This document shows positions 6,464 through 60,870 of a DNA stretch of 64,000 nucleotides, piece after piece. Below the pieces are notes generated by a model, which was not told the origin of the DNA, searched no databases, and saw nothing but the letters and a program-made list of their open reading frames with translations. Position 1 is the first letter of the stretch. Each line of letters starts with the position of its first letter. The translations under genes and the position numbers were made by a program. Source of the DNA: Xenopus tropicalis (taxonomy: Eukaryota; Chordata; Amphibia; Anura; Pipidae); contig NC_030683.2 of NCBI RefSeq assembly GCF_000004195.4, positions 86,887,410-86,951,409 of the forward strand. Direction: 5' to 3'.

Positions 6464-6931
6464 CTGCTTTTAGCTATTACATTTAGGTTGTTCCTACATT
6501 CTTAATTTTATTCAAATATGTGTTTCCGTGTATATCATTACATTTGGCCTACTACATGTTTTTTATGTCCTGCCTTATATGGTCCATACCTTTAATGAAA
6601 TGCTCATTCAATTAAAGCAAAACGCAACTGTATTACTTTTAGCTGTCAGGATAAAAAACTCTATTACCCATAAAGTGTTTCAGGGGACCGGTGTGCACTA
6701 TTACCTTGTGTATGCATGCTTCACTGTGCATTCTGGCTAGACACGCAGCTGGATGGGCACAAGCGCACTAACATCTCAGTGCACGCCGCATCCGCAATTA
6801 TGTCATTTTGACGCAGAATTTGAAATTTAATCTTTGGTTTTGTGTATTCAGTTCCTGCCCAAGCCTTGTTTTATTTCTGATTTTCTGGTTTTTGCCTCTC
6901 TGCCTAATTTTTTGACCAAGAAAGTTCTAAA
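6464..6931. other. Intergenic, no feature seen
   Basis: Unique-looking AT-rich sequence leading into the minisatellite. Confidence 0.4.
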
Positions 6932-7912
6932 TCTGCCCTTACCTCTAACTCAGATTATGATTCTGTTCTCAGTCTGCCCTTACCTCTAACTCAGATTATG
7001 ATTCTGTTCTCAGTCTGCCCTTACCTCTAACTCAGATTATGATTCTGTTCTCAGTCTGCCCCCAACTCTAACTCAGATTATGATTCTGTTCTCAGTCTGC
7101 CCTCACCTCTAACTCAGATTATGATTCTGTTCTCTGTCTGCCCCCAACTCTAACTCAGATTATGATTCTGTACTCAGTCTGCCCCCACCTCTAACTCAGA
7201 TTATGATTCTGTTCTCAGTCTGCCCCCAACTCTAACTCAGATTATGATTCTGTTCTCAGTCTGCCCTCACCTCTAACTCAGATTATGATTCTGTTCTCTG
7301 TCTGCCCCCAACTCTAACTCAGATTATGATTCTGTTCTCAGTCTGCCCCCAACTCTAACTCAGATTATGATTCTGTTCTCAGTCTGCCCTCACCTCTAAC
7401 TCAGATTATGATTCTGTTCTCTGTCTGCCCCCAACTCTAACTCAGATTATGATTCTGTACTCAGTCTGCCCCCACCTCTAACTCAGATTATGATTCTGTT
7501 CTCAGTCTGCCCCCAACTCTAACTCAGATTATGATTCTGTACTCAGTCTGCCCCCAACTCTAACTCAGTTTATGATTGTGTTCCCAGTCTGCCCCCACCT
7601 CTAACTCAGATTATGATTCTGTTCTCAGTCTGCCCTCACCTCTAACTCAGATTATGATTCTGTTCTCAGTCTGCCCCCAACTCTAACTCAGATTATGATT
7701 CTGTTCTCAGTCTGCCCTTACCTCTAACTCAGATTATGATTCTGTACTCAGTCTGCCCCCACCTCTAACTCAGATTATGATTCTGTTCTCAGTCTGCCCT
7801 TACCTCTAACTCAGATTATGATTCTGTTCTCAGTCTGCCCTCACCTCTAAATCAGATTATGATTCTGTTCCCAGTCTGCCCTTACCTCTAACTCAGATTG
7901 TGATTCTGTTTA
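6932..7912. repeat. Minisatellite, 41-bp unit, about 24 copies
   Basis: The unit starts TCTGCCCTTACCTCTAACTC and continues AGATTATGATTCTGTTCTCAG. Successive starts at 6932, 6973 and 7014 give a 41-bp period. Units differ mainly at CCCTTACC, CCCCAACT or CCCTCACC and at TTCTCAG or TACTCAG. Variant types recur in the same order, which suggests block duplication. As 41 is not a multiple of three, coding is unlikely. Confidence 0.95.
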
Positions 7913-15658: not shown

Positions 15659-15734
15659 TTACCGTATATACTCGAGTATAAGCCGAGTTTTTGAGCACAA
15701 AAAGTAACCCTCGGCTTATACTCGAGTACACCTC

Positions 15735-16009
15735 CTCCAACCTACCTCCTTCCACTTGTGCCGACTCCTCGATCTGGCGATGTAGCTCGCTCGCACCCCC
15801 CCCCTGCCCGGACGAGGGTTCCTATGCGCTCGTTCGCGCGTGCTCCTATGCACCCCAGTACAGAAGCGCACAATAACACATGGGTAGAACAGCGTGACAG
15901 CAGGCGGGTTACACAGACGTGTGACTTGGCCTCGCTGTGGATGCCGCTCATAGACACACAAACCCGGCGCAGATAGTGACAGGGAATCAGTGTGCGGACA
16001 ACAGTAAAG
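15735..16009 (+). promoter_or_regulatory. Captured CpG-rich 5' region of vac14
   Basis: This short segment is unusually rich in CG dinucleotides compared with the AT-rich surroundings and ends directly at the vac14 start codon. It probably represents the promoter and 5' UTR of the parent gene. Whether it drives transcription here is unknown. Confidence 0.45.
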
Positions 16010-16113
16010 ATGAACGCGGCACGGGACCTGTCTCCCCTCACCCCCAACATCTTGTGTGCCCTTAATGACAAAATGTATGAGAAGCGCAAGGTGGCGGCCC
16101 TGGAGATAGAAAA
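16010..16113 (+). pseudogene. vac14: vac14 first coding exon, captured in a transposon
   Basis: ATG at 16010 opens a frame reading [20 protein letters not shown], then [15 protein letters not shown]. As I remember human VAC14 this matches its first 35 residues at about 27 positions with the same length. The frame is followed by a strong donor, GTGAGT, at 16114-16119. That splits codon 35 after its second base, as expected if exon 2 supplies the last base of the lysine codon. VAC14 is the HEAT-repeat scaffold that assembles PIKfyve and FIG4 for phosphatidylinositol 3,5-bisphosphate turnover on endolysosomes. No other vac14 exon is seen in the window, so the fragment alone cannot make the protein. 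The donor is intact, so a fusion transcript with a downstream acceptor is conceivable. Confidence 0.75.
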
Positions 16114-16660
16114 GTGAGTAGGGAGGTAGCCAAGCAGTGTGATACAGCAACAGGGTTTGCCCAGTTGGAGTTGGACTACAGCTCCCAGAAGCCCCCGATA
16201 GTGGGGATTGCAGTTAAACAGGTGGAGGGCTGCAGAGTAGGCATTACCTGACAATAACGTTTTATAGGGTTGGTAAGGCAACAGTTGTGATGCTCAGGCC
16301 TGATCTATGGAACAAGGGAGAGAGAATGCCCTGGATTTAACTTCTTTGTGCTTCACTGAGTGTCTCTTTAGGGGGGCAGTGTTCAACTGTGTTTGATATG
16401 GGGGCGCTCAATAAGACTGCTATATGCTGCAGTTGGGGTAGCACCCCAGAATGGACCGCCGTCCAAGGGTGGGAGGGCGTGTTACATCTTCGGCGCTACT
16501 GAAAACTTCTGACTTAGCTAAAAAGTTAAATGGGAGCAAAAAGCTATTGTAGTACTATGGTGGGGCTTGTACACTGGGGTCCAAGTACTTGATAATTAGT
16601 ATGGCAGCTTCTTTAGCGTTCCCAAACTTGCTTATGTCTGCTGCTGTAGCATTTTTCTTT
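16114..16660 (+). other. Captured vac14 intron 1 segment
   Basis: Begins with the donor GTGAGTAGGG. It contains ACTACAGCTCCCAGAAG at 16175, a match to the ZNF143/Staf-type promoter motif that is also common in repeats. By about 16660 it grades into the transposon's right arm; the exact junction is not visible. Confidence 0.4.
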
Positions 16661-17006
16661 CCCTAAAGTTATCTATTTATTTATCTCTTATTTATTTGAT
16701 TATTGAAACTTAGCAGTAGCGGTTGCATTTCCCACCCTCGGCTTATACTCGAGTCAATAAGTTTTTCCAGTTTTCTTAGGTAAAATTAGGTACCTCGGCT
16801 TATATTCGGATCGGCTTATACTCGAGTATATACGGTAAAAATTTCAAATATGGTTATGTGAATAGTCTCTTCAGCATTCAAGCAAAATTAATGAAAAAAT
16901 TTAATTTACTACTTTTCCCGTAATATGTCATGGCTTATGTAATTAACTCATTCAAGATTTGAAATAAATATGCAAAAAAATCACTGTAAAAATTTTGATC
17001 ACTAGT

Positions 17007-21920: not shown

Positions 21921-22935
21921 CTAATAACTGGTTGGGCCACCCTTAGCAGCAATAACTGCAATCAAGCGTTTGCGATAACTTGCAACGAGTCTTTTACAGC
22001 GCTCTGGAGGAATTTTGGCCCACTCATCTTTGCAGAATTGTTGTAATTCAGCTTTATTTGAGGGTTTTCTAGCATGAACCGCCTTTTTAAGGTCATGCCA
22101 CAACATCTCAATAGGATTCAGGTCAGGACTTTGACTAGGCCACTCCAAAGTCTTCATTTTGTTTTTCTTCAGCCATTCAGAGGTGGATTTGCTGGTGTGT
22201 TTTGGGTCATTGTCCTGCTGCAGCACCCAAGATCGCTTCAGCTTGAGTTGACGAACAGATGGCCGGACATTCTCCTTCAGGATTTTTTGGTAGACAGTAG
22301 AATTCATGGTTCCATCTATCACAGCAAGCCTTCCAGGTCCTGAAGCAGCAAAACAACCCCAGACCATCACACTACCACCACCATATTTTACTGTTGGTAT
22401 GATGTTCTTTTTCTGAAATGCTGTGTTACTTTTACGCCAGATGTAACGGGACACGCACCTTCCAAAAAGTTCAACTTTTGTCTCGTCGGTCCACAAGGTA
22501 TTTTCCCAAAAGTCTTGGCAATCATTGAGATGTTTTTTAGCAAAATTGAGACAAGCCATAATGTTCTTTTTGCTTAAAAGTGGTTTGCGCCTTGGAAATC
22601 TGCCATGCAGGCCGTTTTTGCCCAGTCTCTTTCTTATGGTGGAGTCGTGAACACTGACCTTAATTGAGGCAAGTGAGGCCTGCAGTTCTTTAGATGTTGT
22701 CCTGGGGTCTTTTGTGGCCCCTCGGATGAGTTGTCTCTGCGCTCTTGGGGTAATTTTGGTCGGCCGGCCACTCCTGGGAAGGTTCACCATGTTTTTGCCA
22801 TTTGTGGATAATGGCTCTCACTGTGGTTCGCTGGAGTCCCAAAGCTTTAGAAATGGCTTTATAACCTTTACCAGACTGATAGATCTCAATTACTTTTGTT
22901 CTCATTTGTTCCTGAATTTCTTTGGATCTTGGCAT
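21921..22935 (-). pseudogene. Tc1 transposase, one frameshift
   Basis: ATG at 22935 starts an N-terminal paired-like helix-turn-helix region (MPRSKEIQEQMRTKVIEIYQ, then GYKAISKALGLQRTTVRAII). Around 22790 the frame shifts to one beginning MVNLPRSGRPTKITPRAQ, which runs 289 residues to the stop. In that second frame the DD34E triad is complete: D102 in WTDETKVELFG, D193 in QQDNDPKHTSK and E228 in [22 protein letters not shown] is also present. Total length would be about 340 aa. The frameshift at the KHGE/VNLPRSG junction inactivates it. Confidence 0.88.
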
Positions 22936-47176: not shown

Positions 47177-48780
47177 CAGTGGAGGAAATAATTATTTGAC
47201 CCCTCACTGATTTTGTAAGTTTGTCCAATGACAACGAAATGAAAAGTCTCAGAACAGTATCATTTCAATGGTAGGTTTATTTTAACAGTGGCAGATAGCA
47301 CATCAAAAGGAAAATCGAAAAAATAACTTTAAATAAAAGATAGCAACTGATTTGCATTTCATTGAGTGAAATAAGTTTTTGAACCCTCTAACAAAAAAAG
47401 ACTTTATACTTAGTGGAAAAACCCTTGTTTGCAAGCACAGAGGTCAAACGTTTCTTGTAATTGATGACCAAGTTTGCGCACATTTTAGGAGGAATGTTGG
47501 TCCACTCCTCTTTGCAGATCATCTCTAAATCCCTAAGGTTTCGAGGCTGTCTCTGTGCAACTCTGAGCTTGAGCTCCCTCCATAGGTTTTCTATTGGATT
47601 AAGGTCCGGAGACTGACTAGGCCACTCCATGACCTTAATGTGCTTCTTCTTGAGCCACTCCTTTGTTGCCTTTGCTGTATGTTTTGGGTCATTGTCGTGC
47701 TGGAACACCCATCCACGACCCATTTTCAGTTTCCTGGCAGAGGGAAGGAGGTTGTCGTTCAGGATTTCACGATACATGGCTCCGTCCATTTTCTCGTTAA
47801 GTTGTCCTGTGCCCTTAGCAGAAAAACACCCCCAAAGCAAAATGTTTCCACCCCCATGCTTGACGGTGGGGACGGTGTTTTGGGGGTCATAATCAGCATT
47901 TTTCTTCCTCCAAACACAGCGATTTGAGTTAATGCCAAAGAGCTCTATTTTGGTCTCATCAGACCACAGCACCTTCTCCCAGTCACTCACAGAATCATTC
48001 AGGTGTTCATTGGCAAACTTCAGACGGGCCTGCACATGTGCCTTCTTGAGCAGGGGGCCCTTAGAGCCCTGCAGGATTTTAATCCATTGCGGTGTAATAT
48101 GTTTCCAATGGTTTTCTTGGTGACTGTGGTCCCTGCTAATTTGAGGTCATTAACTAACTCCTCCCGTGTAGTTCTAGGATGCTTTTTCACCTTTCTCAGA
48201 ATCATTGACACCCCACGAGGTGAGATCTTGCGTGGAGCCCCAGAGCGAGGTCGATTGATGGTCATTTTGTGCTCCTTCCATTTTCGAACAATCGCACCAA
48301 CAGTTGTCACCTTCTCTCCCAGCTTCTTGCTAATGGTTTTGTAGCCCATTCCAGCCTTGTGCAGGTCTACAATTTTGTCTCTGACATCCTTGGACAGCTC
48401 TTTGGTCTTTCTCATGTTGGAGAGTTTGGAGTCTGCTTGATTGATTGATTCTGTGGACAGGTGTCTTTTATACAGGTGACTAGTTAAGACAGGTGTCCTT
48501 AATGAGGTTGACTAATTGAGTAGAAGTGTCTAACCACTCTGTGGGAGCCAGAACTCTTAATGGTTGCTAGGGGTTCAAAAACTTATTTCACTCAATGAAA
48601 TGCAAATCAGTTGCTATCTTTTATTTAAAGTTATTTTTTCGATTTTCCTTTTGATGTGCTATCTGCCACTGTTAAAATAAACCTGCCATTGAAATGATAC
48701 TGTTCTGAGACTTTTCATTTCTTTGTCATTGGACAAACTTACAAAATCAGTGAGGGGTCAAATAATAATTTCCTCCACTG
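47177..48780 (-). mobile_element. Tc1-type transposon, nearly intact
   Basis: TA lies at 47175-47176 and 48781-48782. The inverted repeats begin CAGTGGAGGAAATAATTATT and extend about 210 bp (the right copy has CAAATAATAATTTCCTCCAC), with an inner TTTCACTCAATGAAATGCAA block. Length 1604 bp, typical for Tc1. A different family from the element at 21703. Confidence 0.92.
47388..48415 (-). pseudogene. Tc1 transposase with a single frameshift
   Basis: ATG at 48415 starts [20 protein letters not shown], then [20 protein letters not shown] and the GRPR-like [11 protein letters not shown]. This is the bipartite helix-turn-helix DNA-binding region, open for about 117 codons. Near 48062 a one-base shift moves the frame to one running through [14 protein letters not shown]. 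That part carries a complete DD34E triad (numbered from the Met at 48035): D26 in [12 protein letters not shown]114 in [11 protein letters not shown] and E149 in [12 protein letters not shown] few codons appear deleted after GTGQL compared with relatives. It ends at a stop at 47388. About 340 aa in total, otherwise well preserved. Confidence 0.9.
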
Positions 48781-54309: not shown

Positions 54310-56076
54310 ATGGCAAGAAGGTTTTTTTCTGCTGAAGAGGCTGCTGCACTGTGCATGGCCTCTAGCTCAGAGGAGTTTAGTGACTCCGATTCTGAGTATG
54401 TGCCCCCTGCATCAGAGAGTGACTCTTCTACTGAGGAGTCATGGTGTAGCAGCAGCACTGTTAGTGCTCTTGAGGAGCCTATGGAGGTAGATGAGGATGT
54501 TGATGATTTGGAAAATCAGGAAGCGGACGATAGGGCTGATGCTGCAGCTGGAGGAGAGCCTGCGTGGAGGCCTCCTTGTAATTTTCCCCCTGAGATCCCC
54601 CCATTTACTGCAGTCCCTGGCGTCAAGGTGGACACCAGTAATTTTGAGCCCATAAATTTTTTCCAATTATTTATGACTGAGGCCATCCTACAGGATATGG
54701 TCCTCTATACCAATGTATATGCCGAGCAGTATCTTACCCAAAATCCCCTGCCTAGGTATGCTCGAGCTCATGCATGGCATCCCACCGATGTTAACGAAAT
54801 GAAGAGGTTTGTGGGACTTACTTTAGCTATGGGTCTCATAAAAGCCAATTCTTTGGAGTCCTACTGGGATACCACTACAGTGTTGTCTATCCCTGTCTTT
54901 TCTGCCACAATGCCTAGAAACCGGTATCAGCTACTGCTCCGGTTTCTGCATTTCAATAGTAATGCTACAGCTGTACCCCCTGATCAGCCCGGCCATGACA
55001 GGCTGCATAAATTAAGGCCCCTTATAGACAGCCTGTCTGAGCGCTTCGCAGCAGTATACACTCCCTCAAAAAAATTTTGTATTGATGAGTCCCTTCTCCT
55101 CTTCAAAGGGCGCCTAAAATTCCGTCAATACATCCCAAGCAAGCGTGCCCGCTATGGGATCAAATTTTATAAACTTTGCGACAGCAGCTCGGGGTACACT
55201 AGCTATTTCCTGATTTATGAAGGCAAGGACTCCAAATTAGATCCCCCTGGTTGTCCCCCTGACTTGACTGTCAGTGGAAAGATTGTATGGGAGCTCATTT
55301 CTCCACTTCTGGGCCGAGGTTTCCACTTATATGTGGATAACTTTTATTCTAGTATCCACTTGTTCACTGCCCTATATAGTTTAGATACCCCAGCCTGTGG
55401 CACCATAAATCGTAACCGAAAAGGATTGCCCAGGCCTTTGCTTGATAAAAAATTGAATCGTGGAGAGACTTATGCCCTTAGAAATAACGAGCTCCTTGCC
55501 ATCAAATTTTTTGACAAAAAAAATGTTTTCATGCTGACCACAATCCACGATGAGTCAGTAATTACAGAACAGAGAGTTGGTAGGCCCCCCAAAAATAAGC
55601 CTCTCTGTAGCAAGGAGTACAGTAAGTACATGGGTGGTGTTGATAGAACTGACCAACTCCATCATTATTACAACGCCACCCGGAAAACAAGGGCCTGGTA
55701 CAAGAAAGTTGGTATATATTTGATTCAAATGGCCCTCCGAAATTCATATATTGTGTATAAGGCAGCAGTACCAGGTCCCAAATTGTCCTATTATAAATAC
55801 CAGCTGCAGATACTCCCTGCCCTGTTGTTTGGTGGTGTAGAGGAGACAGTGCCTGAGATGCCCCCTAGTGACAATGTGGCCCGATTGATTGGGAAGCATT
55901 TTATAGATACGCTTCCACCCACACCTGGCAAACAGAGAGCCCAGAAAGCCTGCAAAGTGTGCCGCAAAAATGGTATAAGACGAGATACACGGTACTATTG
56001 CCCAAAGTGCCCTCGCAACCCCGGGTTATGTTTCAAACCATGTTTTGAAATATACCATACATGGCTGCACTACTGA
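54310..56076 (+). CDS. piggyBac transposase, intact, 588 aa
   Basis: Cut-and-paste transposase that excises at TTAA through a hairpin intermediate. The frame is uninterrupted. The Met at 54310 (MARRFFSAEEAAALC) is preferred over the in-frame Met at 54271 because it starts the acidic N-terminus typical of the family. Domains: acidic Ser/Asp/Glu-rich N-terminus (about 1-80); DDE/DDD RNase H-like core with D259 in CIDESLLLFKG, D343 in YVDNFYSS and D445 in GGVDRTDQL, corresponding to the D268/D346/D447 triad of the moth enzyme; C-terminal cysteine-rich domain (548-588) with CKVC, CPKC and C-x3-C pairs ending near EIYHTWLHY. It strongly resembles the Uribo2 transposase of X. tropicalis as I remember it. 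No stop or frameshift, so either young or selected. An older name could be a PGBD-like gene, but the flanking TIR argues for a transposon. Confidence 0.93.
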   Translation: MARRFFSAEEAAALCMASSSEEFSDSDSEYVPPASESDSSTEESWCSSSTVSALEEPMEVDEDVDDLENQEADDRADAAAGGEPAWRPPCNFPPEIPPFTAVPGVKVDTSNFEPINFFQLFMTEAILQDMVLYTNVYAEQYLTQNPLPRYARAHAWHPTDVNEMKRFVGLTLAMGLIKANSLESYWDTTTVLSIPVFSATMPRNRYQLLLRFLHFNSNATAVPPDQPGHDRLHKLRPLIDSLSERFAAVYTPSKKFCIDESLLLFKGRLKFRQYIPSKRARYGIKFYKLCDSSSGYTSYFLIYEGKDSKLDPPGCPPDLTVSGKIVWELISPLLGRGFHLYVDNFYSSIHLFTALYSLDTPACGTINRNRKGLPRPLLDKKLNRGETYALRNNELLAIKFFDKKNVFMLTTIHDESVITEQRVGRPPKNKPLCSKEYSKYMGGVDRTDQLHHYYNATRKTRAWYKKVGIYLIQMALRNSYIVYKAAVPGPKLSYYKYQLQILPALLFGGVEETVPEMPPSDNVARLIGKHFIDTLPPTPGKQRAQKACKVCRKNGIRRDTRYYCPKCPRNPGLCFKPCFEIYHTWLHY

Positions 56077-58180: not shown

Positions 58181-60190
58181 ATTTTGGCCCCTATAGTAGG
58201 TGTTTTTTTTTTTTCCTCGGTAATATTTGGGGGAGGGGGCACCAAAGTAAATTTCACCCATTTGGCCAGCAGCGGCCCTGGTGTTAAGACTCAAAATCTA
58301 GCAGATATGCACTTATAGCATAGCCACCAGATTTAGCTATTGCCCTAGTTTTAGGGTGTTTGGTGGGTGTGTCTTTTGATACTCACATATGTGGGGTATC
58401 GTTTGATTCAGAAGAAGCTGAAGATTGATATTGAGAAGGTTTTTTGTAGTTGTCACGGCAATTTTAGGGAGAATTTTGACTTTGGATCTTTTTTTTTCTT
58501 CATTTCAAACCGCAGATTTCTACAAAGAACTGCGTCCACAGTTTTCCATGTAGGGGAACAAGGATGGTACCGCTGAATATCTACAGGTGTGCACTTTCAA
58601 GAAATATATGGTTTGTGGGGGCTATTTTACAGCTCACTTGCATGTGGGGTATCGTTTTGTTCGGGAGAATTTGCAGATTGATATTGAGCAGGTTTTTTGT
58701 AGTTGTCATGGCAATTTTGGGGAGAAATTTAACTTTGGATCTTTTTTTTTCTTCATTTCAGGCCAAACTGCGAACTTCTACGAAGAACTGCATCCACAGT
58801 TTTCATGTAGGGGAACAAGCATGGCACCGTTGAATAGCTGCAGGTGTGCACTTTCAAGAAATATATGGTTTGTGGGGGCTATTTTACAGGTAGGGGGTGT
58901 TTTGACTAAAAAACTGCAAGGAGTGCACTTAGAGAGTAGCCCCAAACTTTCCAGCTGAAATTGCTCGTATGTATTGCCCCTGTTTTGGGGTGTTTGGTGG
59001 CCCCGTCTTTAGGTGCACACTTGCATGTGGGGTATCGTTTTGTTCGGGAGAATTTGCAGATTGATATTGAGCAGGTTTTTTGTAGTTGTCATGGCAATTT
59101 TGGGGAGAAATTTAACTTTGGATCTTTTTTTTCTTCATTTCAGGCCAAACTGCGAACTTCTACGAAGAACTGCGTCCACAGTTTTTCATGTAGGGGAACA
59201 AGCATGGCACCGTTGAATAGCTGCAGGTGTGCACTTTCAAGAAATATATGGTTTGTGGGGGCTATTTTACAGGTAGGGGGTGTTTTGACTAAAAAAACTG
59301 CAAGGAGTGCACTTAGAGAGTAGCCCCAAACTTTCCAGCTGAAATTGCTCGTATGTATTGCCCCTGTTTTGGGGTGTTTGGTGGCCCCGTCTTTAGGTGC
59401 ACACTTGCATGTGGGGTATCGTTTTGTTCGGGAGAATTTGCAGATTGATATTGAGCAGGTTTTTTGTAGTTGTCATGGCAATTTTGGGGAGAAATTTAAC
59501 TTTGGATCTTTTTTTTTCTTTATTTCAGGCCAAACTGCGAACTTCTACGAAGAACTGCGTCCACAGTTTTTCATGTAGGGGAACAAGCATGGCACTGTTG
59601 AATAGCTGCAGGTGTGCACTTTCAAGAAATATATGGTTTGTGGGGGTTATTTTACAGGTAGGGGGTGTTTTGACTAAAAAACTGCAAGGAGTGCACTTAG
59701 AGAGTAGCCCCAAACTTTCCAGCTGAAATTGCTCGTTTGTATTGCCCCTGTTTTGGGGTGTTTGGTGGCCCCGTCTTTAGGTGCACACTTGCATGTGGGG
59801 TATCGTTTTGTTCGGGAGAATTTGCAGATTGATATTGAGCAGGTTTTTTGTAGTTGTCATGGCAATTTTGGGGAGAAATTTAACTTAGGATCTTTTTTTT
59901 TCTTCATTTCAGGCCAAACTGCGAACTTCTACGAAGAACTGCGTCCACAGTTTTTCATGTAGGGGAACAAGCATGGCACCGTTGAATAGCTGCAGGTGTG
60001 CACTTTCAAGAAATATATGGTTTGTGGGGGCTATTTTACAGGTAGGGGGTGTTTTGACTAAAAAACTGCAAGGAGTGCACTTAGAGAGTAGCCCCAAACT
60101 TTCCAGCTGAAATTGCTATATGTATTGCCCCTGTTTTGGGGTGTTTGGTGGCCCCATCTTTAGGTGCACACTTGCATGTGGGGTATTGTT

Positions 60191-60870
60191 TTACTTGTGA
60201 GAACTTGTTCTTTCATATTTAACTTCATCTGAAAATTTTTATTAGAGATTTTTTTCTCAAATTCACTTTTGTCTTGTGACTTTGATGGCATTTCATAAAA
60301 TAAAAAAAATCCAAAAAAGTATTGTTGAATTTCGTAGTGATCTTTATGACGCCAACTGCATTTAGAGCAAAAAACTACCCCAGACCCAAAAACCTAGAGG
60401 TGTGTAGTTTCTAAAAATACGTAACTTATGGAGGTCTTTCACTTCTATCATTAGATATACCATGTTAACCTAGAGATGCGCTTATCGGTTTTGTTTCAAT
60501 GTAAAATTGTAGAAAATGTTGTTTTATTATTGGGGTGTTTTCTGGGCAAGAAAAGTGGGATACCAATACATATTTGGTATTGGTGGATTCAGCAGAATCG
60601 GGGCTTTTAAGAATAATAAAATTTTTGTCAGTAAATGTAATTTTTCTTGAAAAAAAAACACAAAATAAAAACATATTTTTCTTTCTTTATTTTTTTTTTT
60701 ACATATTTCACTCAAAATTTTTGTTACATCTCTTGAAAAATTTTTTTTTTTTTTTACAGTGTTAAAGTCCAATTCGCTCCGGAAAAAACAATATATAATT
60801 TGCCTTATTTCATGTAGGCTTTCTTGTCAAAAAACTTAAGCAAATGTAATGAGTGCAAAATGTCTCAAAA
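60191..60870 (+). other. piggyBac 3' subterminal region
   Basis: AT-rich, non-coding, with an AATAAA near 60664 and GGAAAAAACAATATATAATT at 60781 close to the right terminal repeat. Confidence 0.5.

Follow-up and report, generated by a model that had tools for sequence, protein, structure and literature searches.

Within a 64,000-bp stretch of Xenopus tropicalis DNA (C7:86887410-86951409; the window, throughout), a perfect pair of inverted repeats encloses a sequence that encodes the start of VAC14. The locus thus raises the question of whether the authentic vac14 gene begins here, between two inverted copies of a repetitive element, or whether a transposon has captured and mobilised the 5′ end of a gene that resides elsewhere. 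To answer it, we analysed the window and searched the genome (1.451 Gb, 167 contigs) for the parental gene, for further copies of the element and for its relatives.

A vac14 first exon between perfect inverted ends

The inverted repeats of the first-pass annotation, at 15659-15686 (plus strand) and 16811-16838 (minus strand), are 28 nt long and 100% complementary, so identical ends do bracket an interior. Each arm includes a TA and one flank base, which make up the first three bases of the left arm. Since the TA, at 15660-15661 and again at 16836-16837, is the target-site duplication, the element proper spans 15662-16835 (plus strand, 1174 bp), with the same boundaries across its copies. Judged by its short terminal inverted repeats (TIRs) and TA duplication, it is a whole, non-autonomous element of the Tc1/mariner type. 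The 20-nt core of the arm, with up to three mismatches allowed, matched the window at four positions, each of which belongs to one or other end of the element, and had no match in 100 shuffles. GC content was 46-60% in eight 200-bp intervals starting at 15700 to 16400 and 26-37% in such intervals within about 700 bp on either side of the element, in agreement with the GC-rich interior and AT-rich flanks noticed earlier.

The sequence from the ATG at 16010 through 16114 encodes 35 residues matching VAC14 residues 1-35 (77% identity, E 5e-11) in a tblastn search whose query was the human protein. Because a GTGAGT donor starts at 16114 (16114-16119, plus strand), the last base of exon 1 is 16113, within codon 35; its coding part, placed by translation, tblastn and alignment with the parent, therefore covers residues 1-34 and two bases of codon 35 (16010-16113, plus strand). 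The description of the interior as the first 35 VAC14 residues, split at codon 35 by an intact donor, was thereby borne out, as was the statement that no further vac14 exon follows: no second exon was found in the 64-kb window, where the next best VAC14 match had an E value of 3.2. Searches of Pfam and of the PDB with the 35-residue exon gave no matches.

The authentic vac14 gene on C4

The genome holds a single match to PF12755, at C4:75328083-75328277 (11 of 11 candidates scored). On the same contig lies exon 1, at C4:75331067-75331307, and downstream of it are four further vac14 exon blocks of the same orientation. Using tblastn with the human protein, we found the five blocks in order on one strand within 6.3 kb of the 9.9-kb parental segment L010 (starts at reverse-complement positions 1644, 3115, 4630, 5824 and 7872), and no element ends were present in these 9.9 kb at up to four mismatches in 23. 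The authentic vac14 is thus located at C4:75.33 Mb, away from the window on C7, and the parental copy that a Pack-TIR, that is, a TIR element carrying host sequence, should have elsewhere is identifiable. Capture, as first proposed, presupposed another vac14 exon 1 in the genome, and the search for the real locus supplied one.

The first-pass annotation had also considered that vac14 might genuinely begin in the window, with element copies in inverted orientation on its two sides. The exon 1 frame is intact there and a good donor follows it, as this reading would have it, but a second exon is missing from the window, the C4 gene has five exon blocks and the only PF12755 match, and the captured exon occurs at 18 places besides the window. 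We therefore rejected an authentic vac14 at the window, to which we assign next to no probability; the C4 gene, the lone PF12755 match and the 19 captured places together rule it out.

Copies of the vac14-bearing element

Captured places were counted in a search of the genome with 15960-16200. All 20 candidates were scored, and the 20 places recovered are the parent plus 19 that hold the captured exon, among them the window copy. The number of TIR-bounded copies holding the exon, a count that the first-pass annotation had called for, is 14. A search with the whole element gave 68 matches from 40 of 1948 candidates scored, a lower bound. Since the places at C4:17.96-18.16 Mb look like duplicates or halves, the 19 places were counted as at least 16 insertions, namely 15 elements elsewhere and this cluster, on contigs C1-C9 and C22. 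Within the cluster three places resemble local duplicates, one of which has its missing half at a fourth place; L059 and L061 are apparent halves of one element about 6.4 kb apart, L058 and L059 have a common truncation, and L060 is truncated ten bases off. In the apparently split vac14 element at C4:17957913-17964524, the two parts overlap by 5 bp where they are divided, as would be expected after an insertion.

Both ends were found in 14 of the 15 elements, while in the remaining one, C1:214 (L016), the right end is almost entirely missing. Of the 14 two-ended elements, 13 are bordered by TA on either side (allowing a one-base offset for L056 and L057), the exception being L013, which has a rearranged left end without TA. 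As a 2-bp TA duplication cannot differ between sites, the distinctness of the sites rests on their flanks. Among 28 flank pieces, each at most 300 bp long, taken from 14 elements (the flanks of L016 lying outside this comparison), the only likeness between elements was a 77% repeat shared by the left flanks of L003 and L004; in addition, one element's own two flanks resemble each other. The copies therefore occupy distinct sites with their own duplications, as is expected of a multicopy Pack-TIR. Furthermore, L014 (C9) and L015 (C6) are 99.9% identical over 1203 bp and their flanks do not match, and transposition therefore continued until recently.

Extent and history of the capture

The element's own sequence lies on both sides of the cargo. 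All-against-all comparison assigned to it the left part at 15687-15852, the element's first ~80-160 bp being common to relatives without vac14. Its right part lies at 16454-16835, of which the last ~290 bp are 95-98% identical to at least 25 such relatives. Between these parts lie a distal upstream piece of vac14 at 15853-15892 (35 of 40 columns match parent reverse-complement positions 1270-1308), the sequence just 5′ of the ATG at 15894-16009, exon 1, the donor, and intron 1 sequence at 16120-16453, whose match reaches parent reverse-complement position 2071 and which includes about 20 bp absent from the parent (all parts on the plus strand). The sequence 5′ of the ATG falls within a 93% match of 523 columns between the window element and the parent, to which the 40-bp distal piece and a 19-bp piece are added. 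Non-TE host sequence thus stands between the two ends of one TIR element, which is what characterises a Pack-TIR.

In the window copy the captured segment is interrupted, 223 bp of upstream DNA (parent 1309-1531) being absent at 15892-15894, so that little upstream DNA remains there (~155 of the ~404 bp captured upstream of the ATG). The proposal that a non-autonomous element had captured a host promoter, exon and donor held in its main point, with the qualification that the captured upstream DNA is mostly lost at this locus; exon and donor lie within the TIRs. Across all copies, the matches to the parent unite to 1240-2071, ~830 bp in which ~404 bp precede the ATG, 104 bp belong to exon 1 and ~324 bp to intron 1; this span is a union of matches, and none of the copies compared has the segment unbroken.

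Eighteen captured places span the end of the exon. In the 14 of them that were aligned, the right-hand junction between vac14 and element is identical and 15 differences from the parent are fixed, which argues for one capture followed by transposition. All 18 copies that span the donor have GTGAGT, where the parent has GTAAGG. For 13 copies, distances were 0-6.4% between copies and 4.8-6.7% between copies and parent, and in their unrooted tree the parent branch measured 0.034 and one of ten inner branches was well supported. The inference of a single capture rests on the common junction and differences, as this tree is unrooted and poorly resolved. Several independent captures of vac14 were judged unlikely in view of the common right junction. 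At the left border a short shared ACTC, a candidate for breakpoint microhomology, was seen by eye, and an empty relative with the same left part, which would fix this border, was not found.

Taken together, the locus very probably belongs to a multicopy Pack-TIR that arose by one capture of ~830 bp of vac14 and then spread to at least 16 sites with internal losses. In the sequence of events that we propose, an element with Tc1/mariner-type ends would have copied the vac14 segment once, possibly through template switching or gap filling while DNA was being replicated or repaired. The element with its cargo would then have been moved by transposase presumably supplied in trans, different internal parts being lost on the way, and its copies may be transcribed.

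Passenger or exon trap

Subsequently, we considered whether the cargo is used. As a mobile promoter or exon trap, the element would initiate transcription within its captured upstream sequence, and exon 1 would be joined by splicing to host exons lying downstream. Chimeric transcripts of other animal Pack-TIRs, described in the main text of Tan et al. 2021 (PMC8277862), lend this idea some plausibility, as do the presence of GTGAGT in every copy spanning the donor and the mean identity to the inferred ancestor, which is higher in the donor (0.987) than in the intron (0.972), the exon (0.960) and the upstream DNA (0.899). However, the frame is broken in 11 of the 15 copies that keep the ATG, the four intact ones being the window copy, C3, C4:121 and C2:132. 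Nine-base windows identical in every copy number 50 of 606, a set that does not include the strict donor window (-3 to +6). CpG transitions amount to 65/671, against 113/4630 at other C/G positions, a ratio of 4 with near-identical copies counted apart, as from methylated DNA, and the loss of most upstream DNA from the window copy likewise speaks against a trap. Selection on frame or donor was not detected, the frame not being kept and the donor not standing clearly above its surroundings.

Frame loss and CpG decay both speak against a conserved function; to judge by the sequences, they are what neutral, methylated passenger DNA would show, although single copies might still be used. We consider the trap quite improbable. 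Most likely, the vac14 cargo is a passenger without selected function that might now and then provide neighbouring DNA with a 5′ exon and donor.

Relatives of the element and the predicted kbtbd4 hairpins

Relatives with the same ends and other interiors are roughly 93-99% like the vac14 element across ~80-160 bp at the left end and ~290 bp at the right end. Among the matches listed from the 40 of 1948 candidates scored, 25 non-vac14 relatives have the right end; both ends were located in 16 of these and not in nine. The 28 complete elements (16 non-vac14 and 12 vac14) merged into nine groups by interior. One group, formed by L021, L028 and L034, contains a piece matching KBTBD4 residues 132-177 (E 2e-17, PDB search). 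With 170 bp of this piece, a search of the genome gave 33 matches (23 of 23 candidates scored), made up of 16 inverted pairs and one single place. Element ends flank 14 of the 16 paired places on both sides, and L071 and L075 on one side. The unpaired place, C4:16109890-16110018, has no element ends around it and falls within an open BTB-type frame of 218 codons, with a kelch-type frame after it (labels by resemblance); this place at C4:16.11 Mb is the real kbtbd4, the parent of the captured piece, and both parents are thus on C4. The captured part corresponds to L074 4837-5045, and its carriers are L021, L028 and L034, with others among L062-L079. As the same ends carry an inverted pair from kbtbd4, the family captured host DNA at least twice.

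Small RNAs against a parent gene, arising from the element copies, had been suggested for vac14. This reading suits the kbtbd4 elements better because their cargo is an inverted pair, the partner being present at 16 of 16 element places; L001 and L014, the vac14 elements tested, contain no inverted pair at least 25 nt long apart from their ends. The inverted arms reach 100 nt in L034 (96%) and 86 nt in L021 (97%), and pieces of 384-440 nt from L021, L034 and L063 have predicted folds of -260 to -309 kcal/mol on either strand, calculated without a shuffled control. Over 153 bp, the best arm has 98% identity with the kbtbd4 exon, but across 14 elements (16 rows, two elements entered twice) identity to the parent ranges from 72 to 98%, some arms reaching only 72-80%. 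Silencing of a parent gene by such RNAs would be consistent with these arms and folds, and we regard it as rather unlikely.

In other relatives, L025 has a short ATG frame at element offset 229-342 that ends near GTAAG donor-like sites, and L022, of the L022/L019 interior, has one at offset ~380-439; each is a possible captured first exon. A PDB search with these two frames found nothing, and open reading frames of L021, L028, L034, L025 and L022 gave no Pfam match over the cut-off. As the L022 and L025 frames are unmatched, any claim of serial capture rests on two genes. The broader proposal is that the family may be a serial capturer of host exons (the vac14 5′ end with its donor, kbtbd4 as a mobile hairpin, perhaps more), whose hairpin may make double-stranded RNA repressing the donor gene. 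We put it forward tentatively and hold it to be unlikely; if true, the kbtbd4 hairpin would be a mobile source of RNA interference aimed at a host gene.

Relation to known gene-capturing elements

In the main text of Tan et al. 2021 (Nat Commun 12:4280, PMC8277862), 370 Pack-TIRs are reported from 100 animal genomes, 25 of them from western clawed frogs. Multicopy Pack-TIRs are described there as rare in animals, with four cases in the 100 genomes; three multicopy cases are frog ones, including a CAPSL 5′ UTR in hAT-N8_XT. As in those Pack-TIRs, host sequence lies between TIR ends and the parent is identifiable; TcMariner is among the commonest carriers and the multicopy cases lie far from their parents, the vac14 element being alike in both. 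Unlike the cases presented there, the vac14 cargo is a coding first exon with its donor at no fewer than 16 insertions, and other elements of this TIR family hold an inverted pair from a second gene. VAC14 is absent from that main text, which is what the comparison covered, and may be among the three multicopy frog cases. In Drosophila Ssk-FB4, described in the same article, a repetitive element prone to rearrangement likewise took up the upstream and coding region of a gene and transposed it; however, the captured part comprises nearly the whole gene, has 9-10 bp duplications and is translated, whereas the vac14 element holds exon 1 only, mostly frame-broken. Plant Pack-MULEs, of which one third are described as multicopy, similarly mobilise gene pieces in a TIR element but belong to the Mutator superfamily, in contrast to the short ends and TA duplication found here. 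In the collection of papers searched, none links vac14 or kbtbd4 with transposition in Xenopus tropicalis, none joins Xenopus, transduplication, transposon and exon, and none has the end sequence. The vac14 element thus fits the Pack-TIR, a kind already described, to which the kbtbd4 sister lineage adds a second captured gene.

Mu killer of maize is an inverted duplication that potentially yields double-stranded RNA and whose target is a transposon. The inverted pair of the kbtbd4 elements could likewise give double-stranded RNA; unlike Mu killer, its arms match a host gene and the pair is itself mobile.

In the vac14 case there are a clear parent and a series of captured copies, the cargo is a coding exon together with its donor, and a sister lineage has captured a second gene. 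Therefore, three questions become testable in a laboratory frog: how elements acquire host DNA, whether splicing makes use of a mobile donor, and whether the gene from which a mobile hairpin derives is silenced by it.

Other features of the window

Rfam at the gathering score and a tRNA search gave no matches in the window. Two Tc1-type transposase frames (DDE_3, HTH_Tnp_Tc3_2) are present at 21924-22817 and 47391-48146, both on the minus strand, and kinship to the vac14 element is not implied. Tandem arrays occupy 6924-7910 (24 copies of a 41-bp unit) and 58635-60192 (four copies of a 384-bp unit). Finally, a piggyBac-type transposase frame of 588 residues without a stop lies at 54310-56073 on the plus strand, with a DDE_Tnp_1_7 match (E 4e-92) and a zinc finger, and presumably resembles frog Uribo2.
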